Virus record (IMG/VR): IMGVR_UViG_3300043427_000075
Coordinates: 1-20,923 of that record
Length of the DNA stretch: 20,923 bases
Strand: one strand, 5' to 3'
Source of the DNA: a virus
Shown: one piece after another, positions 430 to 18,590 of the stretch
Layout: each line of letters begins with the position of its first letter
How positions within the stretch are numbered: the first letter of the stretch is position 1
The notes under the pieces: model-generated
Told to the model about the DNA's origin: nothing
The model's database searches: none
Seen by the model: only the letters and a program-made list of their open reading frames with translations
Made by a program: the position numbers and the translations under genes

Positions 430-3216
430 TTACTCCTCGTAAACGTAGAAAGGCTCGGTTTCTGTCGTCATGATCTGACTTGGGCTTGCGGCCACAGTGC
501 CACCAATGTATCCAGTACGAGCCACATTCAATCCCATGACCTTGGCAAAGTTCAGCAAATCACGGGCTTGAACCTCTTTCTTCCAGTCGATCTCTTTACC
601 GTCCTTAGTTACCAGCTTCATAGAGGCATTGCGAATAGCATCAATACCACTTGGATCAAGGAACAACCGCCTCTGGGCATCTTTGGTGGCCTGATCAATG
701 TTCGCCTGCCCAATCAATCCCATAATCCTATAGCCCTTTTGCAAGACGCTATAGATGCCGTTGACAAGCACATTGCTGACTTCCTGGGGCTTTGCACCAC
801 CCAAGAACCTCTGCATCATGTTCTGTTCTTCAAGAGCAGCTTTATTGACCGGGAGCTTATCTACATCGATCTTCCTAGAAAGACGAGCAACATCGGCCAT
901 AGCAGTGATGCCATCAAGCTCTTTTGGCGTGTAGATGCTGTTAAAGGCCGTCCTGTTCTTTCGGAGGTAAGCAAATGGATCACCAGAATCAAGCATCTGC
1001 GTGACCAACTGATTACGCAAAGCCATCTTGACGTTGGATTGCTCTTGAACTGGCAGCTTGTTGATGTCAGCCATTAGCCTAGCGGTGTAGCCCCTGCCTT
1101 CGCCACCAGTCATCCTGGAAGCAATACGCTCCACACCACCAGAGTCATAGTCTCTTAGGAAGCTAGTTCCAATGCGAATACGCTCTGCAGAAACAGCGTC
1201 ATCCAAAGCGATTTTCTCAGCAGCAAGTGCCTGCGCCCTCTGAGTGCTGTCCTGTAGCCTCCCTTTGAGGCCAGGGGTCATGTCCAAGATGTCCCTGTAG
1301 CCGCCGTTGTTGCTGTCACGGGTCAGCAGTTTGTCCAACTTGTTGTAGTCAATCAACCCGTTGGTTAGTGACTGATGATAGAGCCTTGACATGATCGACT
1401 TTTCAGCCAATGGCAAACCCTCGTCACCAGCAACACGCAGAAACTGAGAAAGCGCTGTTGGAGAAGAGGCGATCTGAGGCGCAATCTTTTCTGCGTACTC
1501 TTGCGAACTGATACGCTGCACAGCATCGGCATCTCGGAACGGGATCCCAACCTTCGTGTAGTAGTCAGTGTCAAGTTGTCGCATGGCATCACCAAAGGTG
1601 ACATTCTCGCCACGGAAATTGACATTGATGTTACCGCTGGCGTTCTCAACCTTGTTCAGAGCCTCATCCACTCGCTGTTGCAGCAGAGACAGCTTTTCAC
1701 GGATAGCAGGATCACGGACATCACGAAGATCCTTGGCGACTCGGCGTTTCAACGAGTCCAAGCTCGTAATATCCAGGCCTATAGTCAAATCTGGGCCTGT
1801 TGTAGCCGGCAGCATCTCACCACCAGGAGCAGGCGCACGAGAAGCCCTAAGTGCCTTAAAGTTCTCAGACTGCTGGTTAACAAGTCGCAGCAAATCAGAC
1901 TGACGACCCCAAGGATCTCGCCTGAACAAGTCAAAGGCCGTGTTCAAAAGATCTTGTGTGTCTTGGGCAGGAAGAATTGCGCCTTGGTCAGAAGCCTGCT
2001 GTTTGACAGAGTTGTACTCAGGAGACAACGCTTCCCTAGCTGCTCTCTCACGAGCCACCACAAGATTCTGAATGGATGCGCCAAGTTGGGCAGGTGCAGT
2101 CGTGCCCATTAGATTCAAATTAGCGGTCATGTTGCTCAACTGATCGTTGATAGCATTAACACGCTTGTTGAAGTCTACCTTGACATCTTCCAAAGCCTTA
2201 ATTTGCGATGGGAACTGCATTGGCAAACTGGGGAACTCGGTTTTCGCCCTTGCTGCAACCGCCCTCTGTAGATCAGCGTACAACTTCGCCAACTCGCCCC
2301 TGAATTTCAGATCCTTACTGGCCAAATCAGTCAGAGTGGTACGCAATGCAGCGTTGTCAAGACCACTGATGCCAGCGCCAGTGCCGATGTCTTTCCCGGT
2401 GACAAACTTGACCCTGGCCTGGATTTCATTGACTCGCTTGAGCAGATCAGGATCTGAGTCAATTGCTCTGGAAACGAGGCTCTGTGCCCTGGACAAGCCT
2501 TCCATGTTTGCCAAGTCAGCAACATCAACTTTCCCGGCACCACGAACTTTATCAATAGCAGCTTCACCTGCTTTTAGAGCGCCAGCGCCACTGAACAGAG
2601 AGAAAGTTATGCCTCCAATGACGCGGCCAACATCCCCACTAAGTTGTCCTCCGACCTCTCCACCAAACTCACCGCCGACACCAGCCATGCCGCCAGCAAG
2701 TGCTTGTACACCTTTACGGGCCAGACCAGCACCTCCCAACAAATTCAAAGGATCTCCAAATCCTTCTGCAAAACTCATCAAATATTTCTGTGCTTCTGTG
2801 GTGGGACGAACATTACCTCCACCAAGCATCCCAGTAATATTTCGCTGAGTGCTTTGATAAGATTGCTGAAATGCTTGTCCTGGTGAGGGACGAGGCTCAA
2901 CTTGCGAAGACGCATCAAAGAACCTGGGACCAATTGGGAATACTACTCCTGGTGTACCAAGCATAAATGGCGTACCACCTTGAGTCATCCCTTGGCCAGC
3001 CATTGAACTAAGACCCATAAACAGGCTAGGTGTACCAGCAACAGCTCGCCTCAATCCTTCTACTAGTACCTCACCAGTAGAAGAAGCAGGGCGAACGTCA
3101 GCGACATCACGAGGCCGCATACGGATCGCCATAGCAGCTAGTTGCTTCGCATCCTCCGTGTTTCCAGCCGCATCAGCACGGCGCAATGCCTCTAGAACTT
3201 GCTCGTAGGTTGCCAT
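430..3216 (-). CDS. Large internal virion / ejection protein candidate 3
   Basis: Predicted 928-residue protein, the largest in the window. The N-terminus MATYEQVLEALRRADAAGNT and EDAKQLAAMA is a repeating helical motif I associate with phage internal proteins. Glycine-rich hydrophobic stretches lie at about 55-100 and 155-215 (GGMAGVGGEFGGEVGGQLSG). The remainder (about 220-900) is long amphipathic helix with many R, D and Q. I see no lysozyme, transglycosylase or protease signature. T7 gp16 is larger and carries a transglycosylase, so if this is the equivalent it lacks that part. It would help DNA cross the cell envelope (inference). The ATG at 3216 follows TGGAGC. Confidence 0.67.
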   Translation of the reverse strand: MATYEQVLEALRRADAAGNTEDAKQLAAMAIRMRPRDVADVRPASSTGEVLVEGLRRAVAGTPSLFMGLSSMAGQGMTQGGTPFMLGTPGVVFPIGPRFFDASSQVEPRPSPGQAFQQSYQSTQRNITGMLGGGNVRPTTEAQKYLMSFAEGFGDPLNLLGGAGLARKGVQALAGGMAGVGGEFGGEVGGQLSGDVGRVIGGITFSLFSGAGALKAGEAAIDKVRGAGKVDVADLANMEGLSRAQSLVSRAIDSDPDLLKRVNEIQARVKFVTGKDIGTGAGISGLDNAALRTTLTDLASKDLKFRGELAKLYADLQRAVAARAKTEFPSLPMQFPSQIKALEDVKVDFNKRVNAINDQLSNMTANLNLMGTTAPAQLGASIQNLVVARERAAREALSPEYNSVKQQASDQGAILPAQDTQDLLNTAFDLFRRDPWGRQSDLLRLVNQQSENFKALRASRAPAPGGEMLPATTGPDLTIGLDITSLDSLKRRVAKDLRDVRDPAIREKLSLLQQRVDEALNKVENASGNINVNFRGENVTFGDAMRQLDTDYYTKVGIPFRDADAVQRISSQEYAEKIAPQIASSPTALSQFLRVAGDEGLPLAEKSIMSRLYHQSLTNGLIDYNKLDKLLTRDSNNGGYRDILDMTPGLKGRLQDSTQRAQALAAEKIALDDAVSAERIRIGTSFLRDYDSGGVERIASRMTGGEGRGYTARLMADINKLPVQEQSNVKMALRNQLVTQMLDSGDPFAYLRKNRTAFNSIYTPKELDGITAMADVARLSRKIDVDKLPVNKAALEEQNMMQRFLGGAKPQEVSNVLVNGIYSVLQKGYRIMGLIGQANIDQATKDAQRRLFLDPSGIDAIRNASMKLVTKDGKEIDWKKEVQARDLLNFAKVMGLNVARTGYIGGTVAASPSQIMTTETEPFYVYEE

Positions 3217-14341: not shown

Positions 14342-14572
14342 CTATGGCATGAGTGCTTTGAGTTGCTCAGGGGTCTGCGCTGCATCCATCTGAGCCTGAA
14401 GAGCAGCGTACTTGTCACGAATGGCTTGACGAGCGGCCTCGGCTGCTGCCGAGTCAGCGCCAGGAATCTGCTTCATGATAATTGCGTCATGCGGCTCAAA
14501 CTCAGCGGAACGAGCAGCACGACGAGCATCGTGGGCGATGGCCTTCGCCTTTGTCATATTGATCTGGATCAT
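14342..14572 (-). CDS. Small helical phage protein of unknown function
   Basis: Predicted 76-residue protein, mostly helical and alanine rich: TKAKAIAHDARRAARSAEFE at the start, and an A/Q/E-rich helix ending TPEQLKALMP. No catalytic or metal-binding motif is visible. It is translationally coupled to the preceding 62-residue protein by a 4-nt overlap, so the pair probably act together. Position next to the fibre cassette suggests an assembly role, but nothing in the sequence proves it. Confidence 0.57.
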   Translation of the reverse strand: MIQINMTKAKAIAHDARRAARSAEFEPHDAIIMKQIPGADSAAAEAARQAIRDKYAALQAQMDAAQTPEQLKALMP

Positions 14573-14757
14573 GCGTACTCCCAGGCGTTGCGGAACGTGC
14601 GGTCAGTTGGAATGTCAGAGGCATCCACGATCTTGTAGGGCTTGCCTGCCGGTACGTCCTTGGCCGCGATCTGTTCAATCGTCAGGCCGCACTCGGCAGC
14701 AGGCACGATGACGGACACGCCGCCGTCGTCGTTGGGGTAAATGATGCGTTGGTTCAT
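14569..14757 (-). CDS. Small conserved phage protein of unknown function
   Basis: Predicted 62-residue protein. It starts NQRIIYPNDDGGVSVIVPA and ends KPYKIVDASDIPTDRTFRNA then WEYA. I recognise this pattern as recurring in small proteins beside phage fibre genes, but I know no assigned function. It has no membrane segment or metal motif. The gene follows fibre-tip B closely and its stop overlaps the next start by 4 nt, so it is made together with the next protein. It could be a small fibre-assembly partner, which is a guess from position. Confidence 0.6.
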   Translation of the reverse strand: MNQRIIYPNDDGGVSVIVPAAECGLTIEQIAAKDVPAGKPYKIVDASDIPTDRTFRNAWEYA

Positions 14758-14769
14758 GATATCTCCTGA

Positions 14770-15252
14770 TTAACGAAAGATGGTGATGTTGCTGTACAAC
14801 GTATCGACTCCACCAGTATTCGGCTCAAACGCCTGTACCCTGACCGAAGTTGTAGTTGGTGCGGAATTGTTCTTAATGTTGATGTTTTGATCCCTTGCAG
14901 TTCCAGAAGCGGAGAAAGTCCCGCAAGCTGCAACACTGTAATTCCCATCCGGCATCGCCGTGGTGAAGTTAACCGTGTAATCCCCGGTACCGTTGTCAGT
15001 AATCGAAGTCACGTTGCCCGACGCACGAATCGCCACAGTACTTGTGCCGTTGAAGTTGACCCAGGCACGGCATCCATAGGCTGTGGCAACAGAGCCGTAA
15101 CCAGAGTTGAACTGGAACAACCCAGCAGCAGTAATGGTTGCCTGTGTAGTGCCGTTTTGTTGGAAGTTGGTGATGCCATCATTGCCTCCTGTAGTCTTTA
15201 GACCAGAGGAGCCTGATACAACACCATCATCGCTATTGATTATGCTTGGCAT
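14770..15252 (-). CDS. Fibre-tip protein B (paralogue of the preceding gene)
   Basis: Predicted 160-residue protein. Residues 46-105 carry the same core as the upstream paralogue (GYGSVATAYGCRAWVNFNG, DYTVNFTTAMPDGNY). The N-terminal 45 residues (SIINSDDGVVSGSSGLKTTG and onward) and the C-terminal 55 residues are unrelated apart from a similar final IFR. The N-terminus resembles short fibre proteins that begin with a T/G-rich strand. The two genes look like a duplication whose ends were swapped or diverged. The ATG at 15252 comes 9 bases after the upstream stop. Likely an alternative or second tip subunit; the role is inferred. Confidence 0.62.
   Translation of the reverse strand: MPSIINSDDGVVSGSSGLKTTGGNDGITNFQQNGTTQATITAAGLFQFNSGYGSVATAYGCRAWVNFNGTSTVAIRASGNVTSITDNGTGDYTVNFTTAMPDGNYSVAACGTFSASGTARDQNINIKNNSAPTTTSVRVQAFEPNTGGVDTLYSNITIFR
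14938..15117 (-). repeat. Direct repeat copy 2: conserved fibre-tip core
   Basis: This 180-bp segment encodes residues 46-105 of fibre-tip protein B and is the partner of 15433-15612. Most base differences are silent, indicating that the shared core is kept under selection. Confidence 0.85.
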
Positions 15253-15261
15253 GGATGATCC

Positions 15262-15783
15262 TTAACGGAAGATGGCGACACAATACAAATCCAAATCTTC
15301 AAACGTCGCCGTCCCAAAATTTAGTGTGTACGATTCTTTTAACCTTAAAGCACTTGCGGTTGGCGTTTCACCATAAGTTGCAAAAACCCTTGGGTATGCG
15401 TTATTGGCATTGTTAAAACCCACTGTGAACGCGTAATTTGCATCCGGCATCGCCGTCGTAAAGTTCACCGTGTAATCGCCAGTACCGTTATCCGTGATGC
15501 TGGACACATTACCAGACGCACGAATCGACACGGTTCCAGTGCCGTTGAAGTTGACCCATGCTCGACATCCATAGGCTGTAGCAACTGATCCATAACCAGA
15601 ATTGAACTTGAAGTTACCAGAGGCATCGAACTCACCAACCTGTACACCGCCCTCTGCAAAGCCAATCCTGTCGGCTCCTGGGAAGTAAATGCCTGTGTTT
15701 GCATCTGTGCCCCTGATGGCAGGAGTAGACGCAGAGCCGTCTACATCAGACAGGCCCGTGTCACCGTTGAGAATGAGTGTCAT
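15262..15783 (-). CDS. Fibre-tip protein A (paralogue of the next gene)
   Basis: Predicted 173-residue protein. The N-terminus (TLILNGDTGLSDVDGSA, then GTDANTGIYFPGADRIGFA) matches a common attachment segment of short phage fibres. Residues 58-117 form a core containing SGYGSVATAYGCRAWVNFNG and DYTVNFTTAMPDANY. This core is 55/60 identical to that of the gene downstream (14770-15252). The C-terminal 56 residues are different, which fits a receptor-contacting tip. ATGA overlap with the assembly-like gene places it in the fibre cassette. Probably a receptor-binding or tip subunit; this is inference from architecture. Confidence 0.62.
   Translation of the reverse strand: MTLILNGDTGLSDVDGSASTPAIRGTDANTGIYFPGADRIGFAEGGVQVGEFDASGNFKFNSGYGSVATAYGCRAWVNFNGTGTVSIRASGNVSSITDNGTGDYTVNFTTAMPDANYAFTVGFNNANNAYPRVFATYGETPTASALRLKESYTLNFGTATFEDLDLYCVAIFR
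15433..15612 (-). repeat. Direct repeat copy 1: conserved fibre-tip core
   Basis: This 180-bp segment encodes residues 58-117 of fibre-tip protein A. It matches 14938-15117, offset by 495 bp, in the same orientation, with five amino-acid differences in 60 and many silent base changes. The sequence on either side does not match. Confidence 0.85.
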
Positions 15784-16052
15784 GGTTGAGCCTTTGGATA
15801 ACGAGCTTTGATTTCAGCTACTTTGGCTTGCCAATCGTCCATTGTGGCCTCGCCACGTTGTGCCTTAAAGAACAATGGATCCGCTTCAGAAATATAGGCT
15901 TTTTGACGCAGTGTGGAGGAGTTATCAATCTTCCATTGAGCCTCTGCCTGCGCTGCTTGTTCTGCTTGCGTGTTGGCTTGGCTAATTTCTGATTCGGTCA
16001 ATCTAATGACCTTCTTCTCGCCAGTGGTTACATTAACTTGTATGCGTTCCAT
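15780..16052 (-). CDS. Tail fibre assembly-like (chaperone) protein
   Basis: Predicted 90-residue protein. The C-terminal half contains EADPLFFKAQRGEATMDDWQ followed by KVAEIKARYP, a pattern I associate with phage tail-assembly chaperones, where ADPLFFK and W...V..IR.RYP recur. The N-terminal half is Q/A/E rich and helical, joined by a short linker. Proteins of this type normally help the neighbouring fibre fold or trimerise and are not themselves in the virion. It starts with ATG three bases after the upstream fibre-like gene. Its stop overlaps the start of the next fibre-tip gene by 4 nt (ATGA), which supports a functional pairing. The family assignment is by motif only. Confidence 0.6.
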   Translation of the reverse strand: MERIQVNVTTGEKKVIRLTESEISQANTQAEQAAQAEAQWKIDNSSTLRQKAYISEADPLFFKAQRGEATMDDWQAKVAEIKARYPKAQP

Positions 16053-16055
16053 GAC

Positions 16056-16670
16056 TTACTCGTACAAGATGTTGATTGAGCCAGCGTCGAAGGTGTCAGT
16101 GCCGTTGACGGTTGTGATGCGGACGCGGTCTAGGGTGCCACCGAGCGCAAGCGAGCCGTTTGTGAAATATGTGCTCGCCAGCGCGTCTGATCTGCCGACA
16201 CTGCCAGCAGCAGCCCAAGTATTGCCCGTCTGCAAATTTAATACTATTGCCCCGTGAACGACAACATTTGACGCCCAATTAGATGTGTTTACGCCAATTC
16301 CAAAACCAGATGTAAATAGTGCCGATCCAACTGTTGAATTGGTGACGATAGTGCTAGACCCCAAATACCCTGAAGTAGTAAAGCTTCCCGCGCCAATTTG
16401 AATTTGCGGAGGAGACGATCCATTGGTGGAAACGCCTACAAACATTACGGTAATCCGCCGCACCCAAGACGGAATGCCAGTAAAATCAATCGATGTACCA
16501 GAGGTGGAGTTCTGAGCGGTAGCAGCAGTGATCGCACTATTGATTCCGTTGACAACAAAAGTCCCAGTTCCATCAGGCAAAGACAGGGTTCGGCTGGAGT
16601 TTGAGTTCGGAGATGCAATAGTGAACGTACCCGTTCCACTTGCATTGCCTTCAATAGCGATCTTGCTCAT
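16056..16670 (-). CDS. Beta-rich tail fibre-like structural protein
   Basis: Predicted 204-residue protein, Ser/Thr/Gly rich with almost no charged clusters, typical of a beta-stranded fibre or tip subunit. The N-terminus contains GTGTFTIASPNSNSSRTLSLP, a pattern frequent at the start of short phage fibre proteins. A central stretch, SGTSIDFTGIPSWVRRITVMF (about 57-77), looks like the core strand of a widespread virion domain. The C-terminal half is variable-looking. The ATG at 16670 follows AAGGAT. It lies between the collagen fibre and the assembly-like protein, supporting a role in the same adsorption structure. Function is inferred from composition and position. Confidence 0.62.
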   Translation of the reverse strand: MSKIAIEGNASGTGTFTIASPNSNSSRTLSLPDGTGTFVVNGINSAITAATAQNSTSGTSIDFTGIPSWVRRITVMFVGVSTNGSSPPQIQIGAGSFTTSGYLGSSTIVTNSTVGSALFTSGFGIGVNTSNWASNVVVHGAIVLNLQTGNTWAAAGSVGRSDALASTYFTNGSLALGGTLDRVRITTVNGTDTFDAGSINILYE

Positions 16671-16679
16671 CTTTTATCC

Positions 16680-18590
16680 TTACAGAACAAGCCAACGCTG
16701 ACCTGAAGATACGGTCACAGTGACACCAGAGTTTACTGTCATCGGTCCTACGCTCATGGCGTTCTGACCAGATGCAACCGTGTAGCTTGCTGCAACTGTG
16801 GTGCTGTTAATTATCAGACCGTTTGTCGATACCGAAGCAGATGCCTGCAACTCGCCAGTGGATGGCTTGTAGAGGTACTTGGCATTGCTTGTGTAAATGA
16901 CCGTTGGTGTACCAGAAGTTGCAGCAGCAAACAGCGGATACAGGTTGGTTGATGTGCTGGTGTCGTTTGTAATCGATGCACCAGCATTGACCGTAGCCCA
17001 CGATGTGTTCGTGCCATCAGTGGTCAGGTACTTGCCAGACTGAGATGACTGACTAGGCGCAAGAGCGTTAAACGCAGCATTGGCCGTTGTCTGTCCCGTA
17101 CCGCCATTGCCAATAGGTAGCGTGCCGGTCACTTGAGTGGTGAGATCAACACCAGAAAGAGTGCCGCCAAGCGTCAAATTACCGCTAGACGTAACCGTGC
17201 CACTAAGAGTAATACCGTTTACAGTGCCAGTGCCACCAACAGAGGTGACCGTGCCAACGTACTGATCGTTTGATGTGATCGTGAAGTTAGGGTACGTCCC
17301 AGAGATGCTGGTAGTACCAGCCCCGGTCAGCAAAACAGTTTGATCTGGCGCACTGTTCGTAATCGTTACCGTGTCTGTGCTGTCGTTTGTAGTGATTGTG
17401 ATGCCGGTGCCAGAGGCCAGCGTCAGCGTGTCGTCATTCGTATCTGCAACAACCGTGTTCTGTCCAGCAACGGCTACGTTCTTAAAGATGTTTTGAGACG
17501 AGCCACGATCCGAATTAGTGATCGTGAAGTTGGGATACGTCCCAGATGTGCTGATCCCAGTGCCAGCAGTAAGCGCAACCGTCTGATCTGGTGCACTATT
17601 GGTGATCACACCCGTCGAAGTGCTGTAGCTAATGCCTGTGCCAGCACTCAGAGCAGAACGCGCCCTAGAGTCCAGATAGTATTGATTGGTGCCCTCGCTG
17701 ATGTTTGTGGTGGTAAGCACCACAGCACCAGTTTGCGAGTTGACAGAGGTCACCAAGTTGGATTGGTCGATCTTCTGCCACACCGTACCGTTAAACATTA
17801 GCCAATCACCGATCTGCCAGTCAGTGATGCCATCCAGATTCGTCGATCCTGCCGTCGCAACGATGTAGTAGTAGCCGTTTGTACCAACACCAGAAGCTAG
17901 CGTCGGAGTGTTTGCCGATGCATTCCAAGTGCCCTGGTAGCTCAATCCACCAGCAACTTGTGCCCAAGACAACACAGAGCCGTTCGTCGTCAGAAACTTG
18001 CCTGCTTGACCAGTTTGGCTAGGGATAAGGTTGTTGATCTGGGTCTGAAGGCTGGCCAATGTGTCAAGCACTGATTGACTAGTGCCTCCACCATTGGTAA
18101 TCACCTTGATCTTCTCAGCGAGATCAGGCGCAACCACCTCACCCACATTGATCGTCCTGCCACTCGACAGGCTAATGATCAGACTGCCGTCAAAGTCGAT
18201 GTGTGCGTCAGTGACTGATACGCCATCTTCACCGTCTTTGCCATCGCGGCCATTCAGCCCGTCTTTGCCCTTTGGACCCATCGGACCGACAGATCCATCG
18301 CGGCCATCCCGGCCATTAGCGCCGTTTCTGCCGTCTTTCCCGTCTTTGCCGTCCTTGATAGACCTAACGCGAGACTCGATCTTGTTGCCAAGGTCATCGT
18401 ATCTGTCGCGTATATCAGACTCAATCTTCTTGAGAGCCTGAATAACTAGTTGGGCGTTCTCGCCAACCTTCTGTTTCTGTAGCTCCCGCGTCTTCTGGAC
18501 AGATTCGCGGATAGACATCAGAACAGCCTTCTGCTGTTCCTCCGTCATCCCCTTAAGAATCAGTTGTTTGGCGAGGCTTTCAACGTCCAT
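16680..18590 (-). CDS. Tail fibre with collagen-like segment
   Basis: Predicted 636-residue tail fibre, a trimeric adsorption protein. The order is: an N-terminal coiled coil (1-78, Q/K/E rich), fourteen uninterrupted Gly-X-Y triplets (81-122), a stretch with the fibre-type motif DWQIGDWLMFNGTVWQKI (about 257-274), then a repetitive Thr/Ser/Gly beta region. Residues 330-362 and 411-442 are copies of one unit built around SAPDQTV and SGTYPNFTIT. The motif NGGTGQTTANAAFNAL lies at about 495-510, and the C-terminus VTVSSGQRWLVL is a common fibre ending. The ATG at 18590 has GGGAG upstream. The N-terminal coiled coil may attach it to the tail (inference). It sits directly behind the portal, an unusual place for a fibre. 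Confidence 0.82.
   Translation of the reverse strand: MDVESLAKQLILKGMTEEQQKAVLMSIRESVQKTRELQKQKVGENAQLVIQALKKIESDIRDRYDDLGNKIESRVRSIKDGKDGKDGRNGANGRDGRDGSVGPMGPKGKDGLNGRDGKDGEDGVSVTDAHIDFDGSLIISLSSGRTINVGEVVAPDLAEKIKVITNGGGTSQSVLDTLASLQTQINNLIPSQTGQAGKFLTTNGSVLSWAQVAGGLSYQGTWNASANTPTLASGVGTNGYYYIVATAGSTNLDGITDWQIGDWLMFNGTVWQKIDQSNLVTSVNSQTGAVVLTTTNISEGTNQYYLDSRARSALSAGTGISYSTSTGVITNSAPDQTVALTAGTGISTSGTYPNFTITNSDRGSSQNIFKNVAVAGQNTVVADTNDDTLTLASGTGITITTNDSTDTVTITNSAPDQTVLLTGAGTTSISGTYPNFTITSNDQYVGTVTSVGGTGTVNGITLSGTVTSSGNLTLGGTLSGVDLTTQVTGTLPIGNGGTGQTTANAAFNALAPSQSSQSGKYLTTDGTNTSWATVNAGASITNDTSTSTNLYPLFAAATSGTPTVIYTSNAKYLYKPSTGELQASASVSTNGLIINSTTVAASYTVASGQNAMSVGPMTVNSGVTVTVSSGQRWLVL
18225..18350 (-). 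repeat. Collagen-like Gly-X-Y repeat (14 triplets)
   Basis: This is a 126-bp stretch of the fibre gene encoding fourteen consecutive Gly-X-Y triplets, mostly GKD, GRD and GPx. Collagen-like triplets in phage fibres form triple helices that join or register the trimer. The 9-nt periodicity makes the DNA repetitive, so copy number could change by recombination or slippage. Confidence 0.9.

Follow-up and report, generated by a model that had tools for sequence, protein, structure and literature searches.

Exchange of tip modules in a very widespread phage tail-fibre domain with a near-constant core

The window, by which we mean the whole 20,923-base stretch analysed (virus record IMGVR_UViG_3300043427_000075), encodes a portal of the SU10/P22 kind and a major head protein, and the open reading frame list places its structural genes on the minus strand. 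Two small adjacent genes, A and B, lie there together with the features collected in Table 1. A ribosome-binding-site-like AAGGA of gene B overlaps the stop codon of gene A at their junction (TTAAGGATCATCCATG), so that the conserved end of one gene also serves the next. The 90-residue gene upstream of A could be assigned to no family. The gene for the collagen-containing fibre holds a 36-nt direct repeat (17275-17310 and 17518-17553, 89% identical) encoding the repeat motif SGTYPNFTIT. The 204-residue protein matches the C-terminal end of PHROG 29482 (positions 334-474 of 477) and, on the strength of this match, may be a further fibre tip with a gene of its own.

Table 1. Genes A and B, their parts and their neighbours in the window
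Feature	Positions	Strand	Remark
636-aa collagen-containing fibre	16680-18590	-	
204-aa protein	16056-16670	-	
90-aa gene, upstream of A	15780-16052	-	
Gene A, 173 aa	15262-15783	-	
Gene A N-terminal part, residues 1-60	15604-15783	-	presumed fibre attachment/stalk
Gene A conserved core, residues 61-120	15424-15603	-	predicted tip beta-sandwich, first half
Gene A hypervariable tail, residues 121-173, ends VAIFR, plus stop	15262-15423	-	predicted beta-sandwich, second half
A/B junction CCATCTTCCGTTAAGGATCATCCATG	15250-15275	-	A end, B start; homology resumes here after the variable tail
Gene B, 160 aa	14770-15252	-	
Gene B N-terminal part, residues 1-48	15109-15252	-	99% DNA identity in five contigs
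Gene B conserved core, residues 49-108	14929-15108	-	
Gene B hypervariable tail, residues 109-160, ends ITIFR, plus stop	14770-14928	-	
Gene C, 62 aa, conserved neighbour downstream of B	14569-14757	-	

An earlier note on this DNA had described the two genes as sharing a 60-residue core at 55 of 60 identities, with mostly silent differences. Both reading frames exist and both coordinate pairs are correct: 15433-15612 and 14938-15117 on the minus strand correspond to residues 58-117 of A and 46-105 of B, and the five differences are K/Q, G/S, S/A, S/T and A/G. At the DNA level the cores are 82.2% identical over 180 nt (blastn), and a repeat finder returned them as a direct repeat (14938-15130 and 15433-15625, 80% identity, spacing 495). 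The 38 differences in 189 nt are indeed mostly silent (NG86 dN of 0.09 against dS of 1.03; dN/dS of ~0.09). The core is clearly under purifying selection, and its constancy may serve folding, a trimer interface or assembly. Both proteins match PHROG 11355, a tail fibre protein family (A, E = 5.4e-18 over residues 73-132; B, E = 1.8e-18 over residues 61-160), and given these matches and the hundreds of relatives described below, their likeness goes far beyond chance.

Scanning viral contigs with proteins A and B as queries gave at least 583 and at least 596 confirmed relatives, and from the retrieved loci we took 155 distinct proteins; core and tail were both complete in 147. At a threshold of 50% identity these 147 formed 2 clusters by core, 129 by tail and 61 by N-end. 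Their mean pairwise identity was 79% in the core (a somewhat overstated conservation, since most relatives were recruited by core-derived peptide patterns), 26% across the tail and 32% over the 48 residues preceding the core. The core is thus carried on many different ends and is not limited to the arrangement seen in the window, which bears out the earlier suggestion of a conserved part with exchanged ends. Searches with the tails alone, which are free of the core bias, listed 4 and 3 contigs, and all five distinct contigs with a real tail-only match had a core upstream. In 151 of the 155 proteins 40-69 residues follow the core; most end in [IV]FR, and the domain terminates the polypeptide in nearly all members, including fibres of up to 960 residues. 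It is present in 25 bacterial genome contigs and in 56 phage records, including phages of Synechococcus, Vibrio, Rhizobium, Nitrincola and Puniceispirillum. No paper naming the motif AWVNFNG came up in a search that covered mainly open-access literature.

Exchange within this family can be read directly in the DNA. The N-terminal part of gene B recurs at 99% identity in L083, L084, L085, L006 and L086; the core is 81-84% identical to that of the window gene in the first four and 64% in L086, a contig that ends inside the core, and the four readable tails reach 52-57% by gapped alignment, which is the chance level. For gene A, identity in L006, L083 and L085 is 92-96% in the N-terminal part, 76-79% in the core and 46-56% in the tail. 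Past the variable tail, homology is back above 90% from the stop codon on and in the gene that follows. The swaps have one boundary in the core and the other at the gene end. In 24 protein pairs chosen for N-terminal parts at least 95% identical, mean identity was 96-99% ahead of the core; inside the core it went from 92-98% over the opening 60 nt to 79% at 150 nt, and in the tail it was 40%. The tails differed in 21 of the pairs. Such a decay through the core is the pattern expected if crossovers fall at varied points within it. The window tails themselves turn up elsewhere: tail A, 77% identical, sits on a different N-end in L009, and tail B, 90% identical, on a different N-end in L154, where it adjoins two further core genes. 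A sister contig, L149, has 3 mismatches against the window in 5195 nt, none of them in A or B, and the same junctions; as it carries both genes unchanged, the pair is stable on short time scales.

Whole tip genes are also gained and lost. Gene B is absent from three contigs (L003, L007 and L008), in which gene A is followed directly by gene C, and L006 holds between A and B (2967-3040) a shortened copy of the gene C start (ATGAACCAACGC...TCCGCATAA) that ends in a stop codon, the scar of an insertion or duplication; L086 holds a stretch similar to it. These contigs and the scar indicate that gene B comes and goes. The earlier note had foreseen deletion or a chimera through recombination across the repeats: forms without gene B do exist, but the product joining the N-terminal part of A to the tail of B was not found, and the two cores match perfectly over no more than 20 nt at a stretch. 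That a phage may carry two tips, as the note also proposed, fits what we see, with A and B side by side here and one or up to five core genes in other contigs; at least two occur in 29 of 115 contig groups after overlapping loci were merged.

The description of A and B as duplicates is more doubtful. Their cores are not mutual closest relatives, the similarity between them ranking 5th and 6th of 140, and paralogous cores in one contig are no more alike than cores from different contigs (permutation p = 0.96), with fourfold-site divergence about equal within and between contigs. We therefore set aside a recent tandem duplication; judged by their sequences, A and B appear to be two tips that were acquired independently, which fits these rankings and divergences better than a fresh duplication would.

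The ends of the proteins are related in ways that simple alignment misses. A profile of 116 tails, each less than 35% identical to both window tails, gave 30.1 bits for tail A and 40.0 bits for tail B (best of 500 shuffles, 5.8 and 10.1), and in a half-and-half profile test 63 of 65 unseen tails outscored every shuffle. The framework residues kept are a PTTSxxR patch, one Asp (128 of 130), a final F (116 of 130) and a final R (129 of 130). With the last 8 residues removed, tail B still scored 30.5 bits; tail A scored just 9.6, and 1 of 500 shuffles did as well. Given the shared profile and the kept framework residues, the tails most probably share a single fold whose surface has been replaced, rather than being unrelated sequences. 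At the other end, a plain HMM test failed for the whole N-terminal parts of A and B (46 of 500 shuffles were as good), whereas their final 22 residues align in a profile-profile comparison (E = 9e-6) and the predicted strands preceding the core are equally spaced in both models. For this reason we claim homology for the last ~22 residues alone, which look homologous. The unrelated ends around which the earlier note had built its module are therefore only partly so: the C-terminal ends are homologous by profile, and the N-terminal parts look homologous over those last ~22 residues.

AlphaFold models of the monomers (A, pLDDT 80 and pTM 0.63; B, pLDDT 78 and pTM 0.54, with residues 63-69 of B unreliable) place core and tail together in one predicted C-terminal beta-sandwich in both proteins. 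This prediction and the homology of the C-terminal ends argue against the earlier picture of a separate folding or trimerisation core set between foreign ends; homologous ends were among the outcomes that the note itself had named as refuting it, and the C-terminal ends bear this out in part. Residues 71-173 of model A match the C-terminal domain of the phiAB6 tailspike (Z = 8.4), and further matches of this model are the receptor-binding domain of the Pam1 tailspike (7EEA; Z = 7.9 over 70 residues, 1.9 A, 21% identity), AP22 gp53 (4MTM; Z = 6.3), LKA1 gp49 (Z = 6.1), Helix pomatia agglutinin (Z = 6.0) and R-pyocin fibres (6CL6; Z = 5.2). The best phage matches of model B are again phiAB6 and Pam1, with unrelated folds close behind. 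These scores (best 8.4 for A and 7.0 for B) are middling and would not by themselves settle the fold. The structural neighbours are C-terminal domains of phage tailspikes and fibres, and lectins, and for model A the set is nearly that reported for the R-pyocin foot. Foldseek returned no match against the PDB at E ≤ 0.001 and 71 matches against viral models, mainly unnamed phage proteins together with the fibres of Syn5, S-TIM5 and ACG-2014f. A sequence search of the PDB gave nothing relevant. Pfam matches below threshold (FNG, Big_13, TcdA1_RBD_3 and Gp53-like_C) were taken as chance or as a common beta-sandwich pattern.

We consider it likely that A and B are receptor-binding tip cassettes that resemble the R-pyocin foot and AP22 gp53 and are reshuffled by recombination in the core. 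They would be short tail-fibre tip proteins, each tied to the fibre by its N-terminal stretch and ending in one beta-sandwich with a nearly invariant core, while the hypervariable tail, apart from the framework residues and the last strand, would probably bear the loops that contact the receptor. A crossover in the shared core, paired with a second one at the end of the gene or within the gene that follows, would replace core and tail and let the phage keep its own N-end, and such a swap would change its specificity; the same process could add or remove whole tip genes, with genomes carrying one to five. We infer that the receptor contacts lie in the tail, that the tips form trimers mounted on the virion, and that the swaps arise by homologous recombination. 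Perfect matches between cores have a median of 12-14 nt, and those of the window cores to other cores do not exceed 30 nt, so RecA alone would probably work poorly on them, or on the 20 nt shared by A and B. A phage annealing enzyme would suit the swapping; among the 22 contigs searched RecT was found in none, ERF in 2 and a Sak4-like protein in 1, so that no common recombinase can be named.

Two biological alternatives were considered. It is unlikely, in our judgement, that A and B are decoration, spacer or assembly-cap proteins whose tails vary through phage-specific contacts or escape from host surface defence. Such a role would be compatible with a functional assignment that rests on fold and family names, and with the eight related domains that Syn5 gp46 carries inside a long fibre and not at its end; the position of the domain at the extreme C-terminus in nearly all members, 40-69 residues past the core, its adhesin C-terminal domains as fold neighbours and the PHROG tail fibre match all speak for a tip instead. 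We hold improbable, and strongly disfavoured, an origin of A and B by plain tandem duplication in which diversifying selection drove the ends apart where they stand and phages exchanged nothing. In its favour, the two neighbouring genes have a similar layout and their tails are homologous by profile. Yet divergence in place would not leave 99% identical N-terminal parts beside chance-level tails with abrupt junctions in several contigs, join tails A and B to unrelated N-ends in other contigs, or leave the paralogous cores of one contig with no more resemblance than cores taken from different contigs.

The remaining explanations concern how the junctions and the tails came about. Every locus with junctions is an assembled metagenome contig, and assemblers could in principle have joined different phages in the shared core. 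This is very unlikely: the identical runs of at most 30 nt between the window and other cores are below the long words of assemblers, L149 repeats the window with identical junctions, and two named isolates, HMO-2011 and Syn5, each have several copies whose ends differ. A hypervariable C-terminal end on an otherwise constant body also resembles the targets of programmed systems, and a diversity-generating retroelement or an invertible shufflon might be thought to make the tails. We regard this as highly implausible, since among 24 records of 17-58 kb, possibly incomplete, a reverse transcriptase was found in none (the control was positive in 3 genomes) and a serine recombinase in 1, the repeat finder returned no inverted repeat at the A/B locus, and the tails differ in length and in all bases.

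Modular tip exchange in this very widespread phage fibre domain is thus real and well-delimited, and it offers a natural case in which to test how receptor-binding tips move among unrelated phages. Through swaps of the second half, a phage can probably change its attachment target. The host range of most uncultured aquatic phages is not predictable, and the domain provides a handle on it: once the core has been located, the tail can be read and set against the hosts. A more tentative idea, to which we give rather less than even weight, is that the core serves as a shared recombination adaptor among the tailed phages of many aquatic bacteria, by which any phage picks any hypervariable tip half from a common pool, with arrays of single-gene tip cassettes growing and shrinking; if so, one phage community would share one adhesin repertoire.

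Among known families, PHROG 11355 is matched by both window proteins and has no mechanism or structure attached to it. Two isolates carry the domain in other layouts. In HMO-2011, a Puniceispirillum phage, it occurs in at least five small tandem genes, all five ending in GDLA instead of IFR and with a core less like those of A and B; they lie in a series of some twelve small tail genes (L183, 1479-6318). Synechococcus phage Syn5 gp46 (L181, 4624-8685) has eight tandem copies of the domain in one 1353-residue fibre, again with a less similar core, and differs from A and B in that the copies are fused into one protein.

The constant motifs of T2-type gp38 adhesins reportedly can act as recombination arms (Tetart and colleagues). 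As in our family, constant motifs there flank hypervariable receptor-contacting segments; gp38 folds as a polyglycine-II sandwich that bears several variable loops, whereas A and B are predicted beta-sandwiches with one contiguous variable half. The glycine-rich motifs that accompany the hypervariable segments of gp38 (PMC12892980, PMC12529663) were not seen in the A/B family sequences.

The R-pyocin fibre foot and AP22 gp53 are trimers of a lectin-like jellyroll whose distal loops vary (PMC6363177, PMC6116203). If the middling structural matches of the models hold, A and B would share with them a C-terminal beta-sandwich at the fibre tip, with variable segments on a conserved scaffold. A and B nevertheless form a distinct sequence family: a Pfam search gave the window proteins no match to Gp53-like_C (PF21882), and 5 of 77 family members reached E ≤ 0.1 (best, 0.0014), short of the Pfam cut-off. 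The conserved part of the A/B family is a contiguous first half, ~80% identical across unrelated fibres, and the second half of the domain is replaced wholesale. In principle this exchange is close to known adhesin swapping, and the split inside one domain is unusually sharp.
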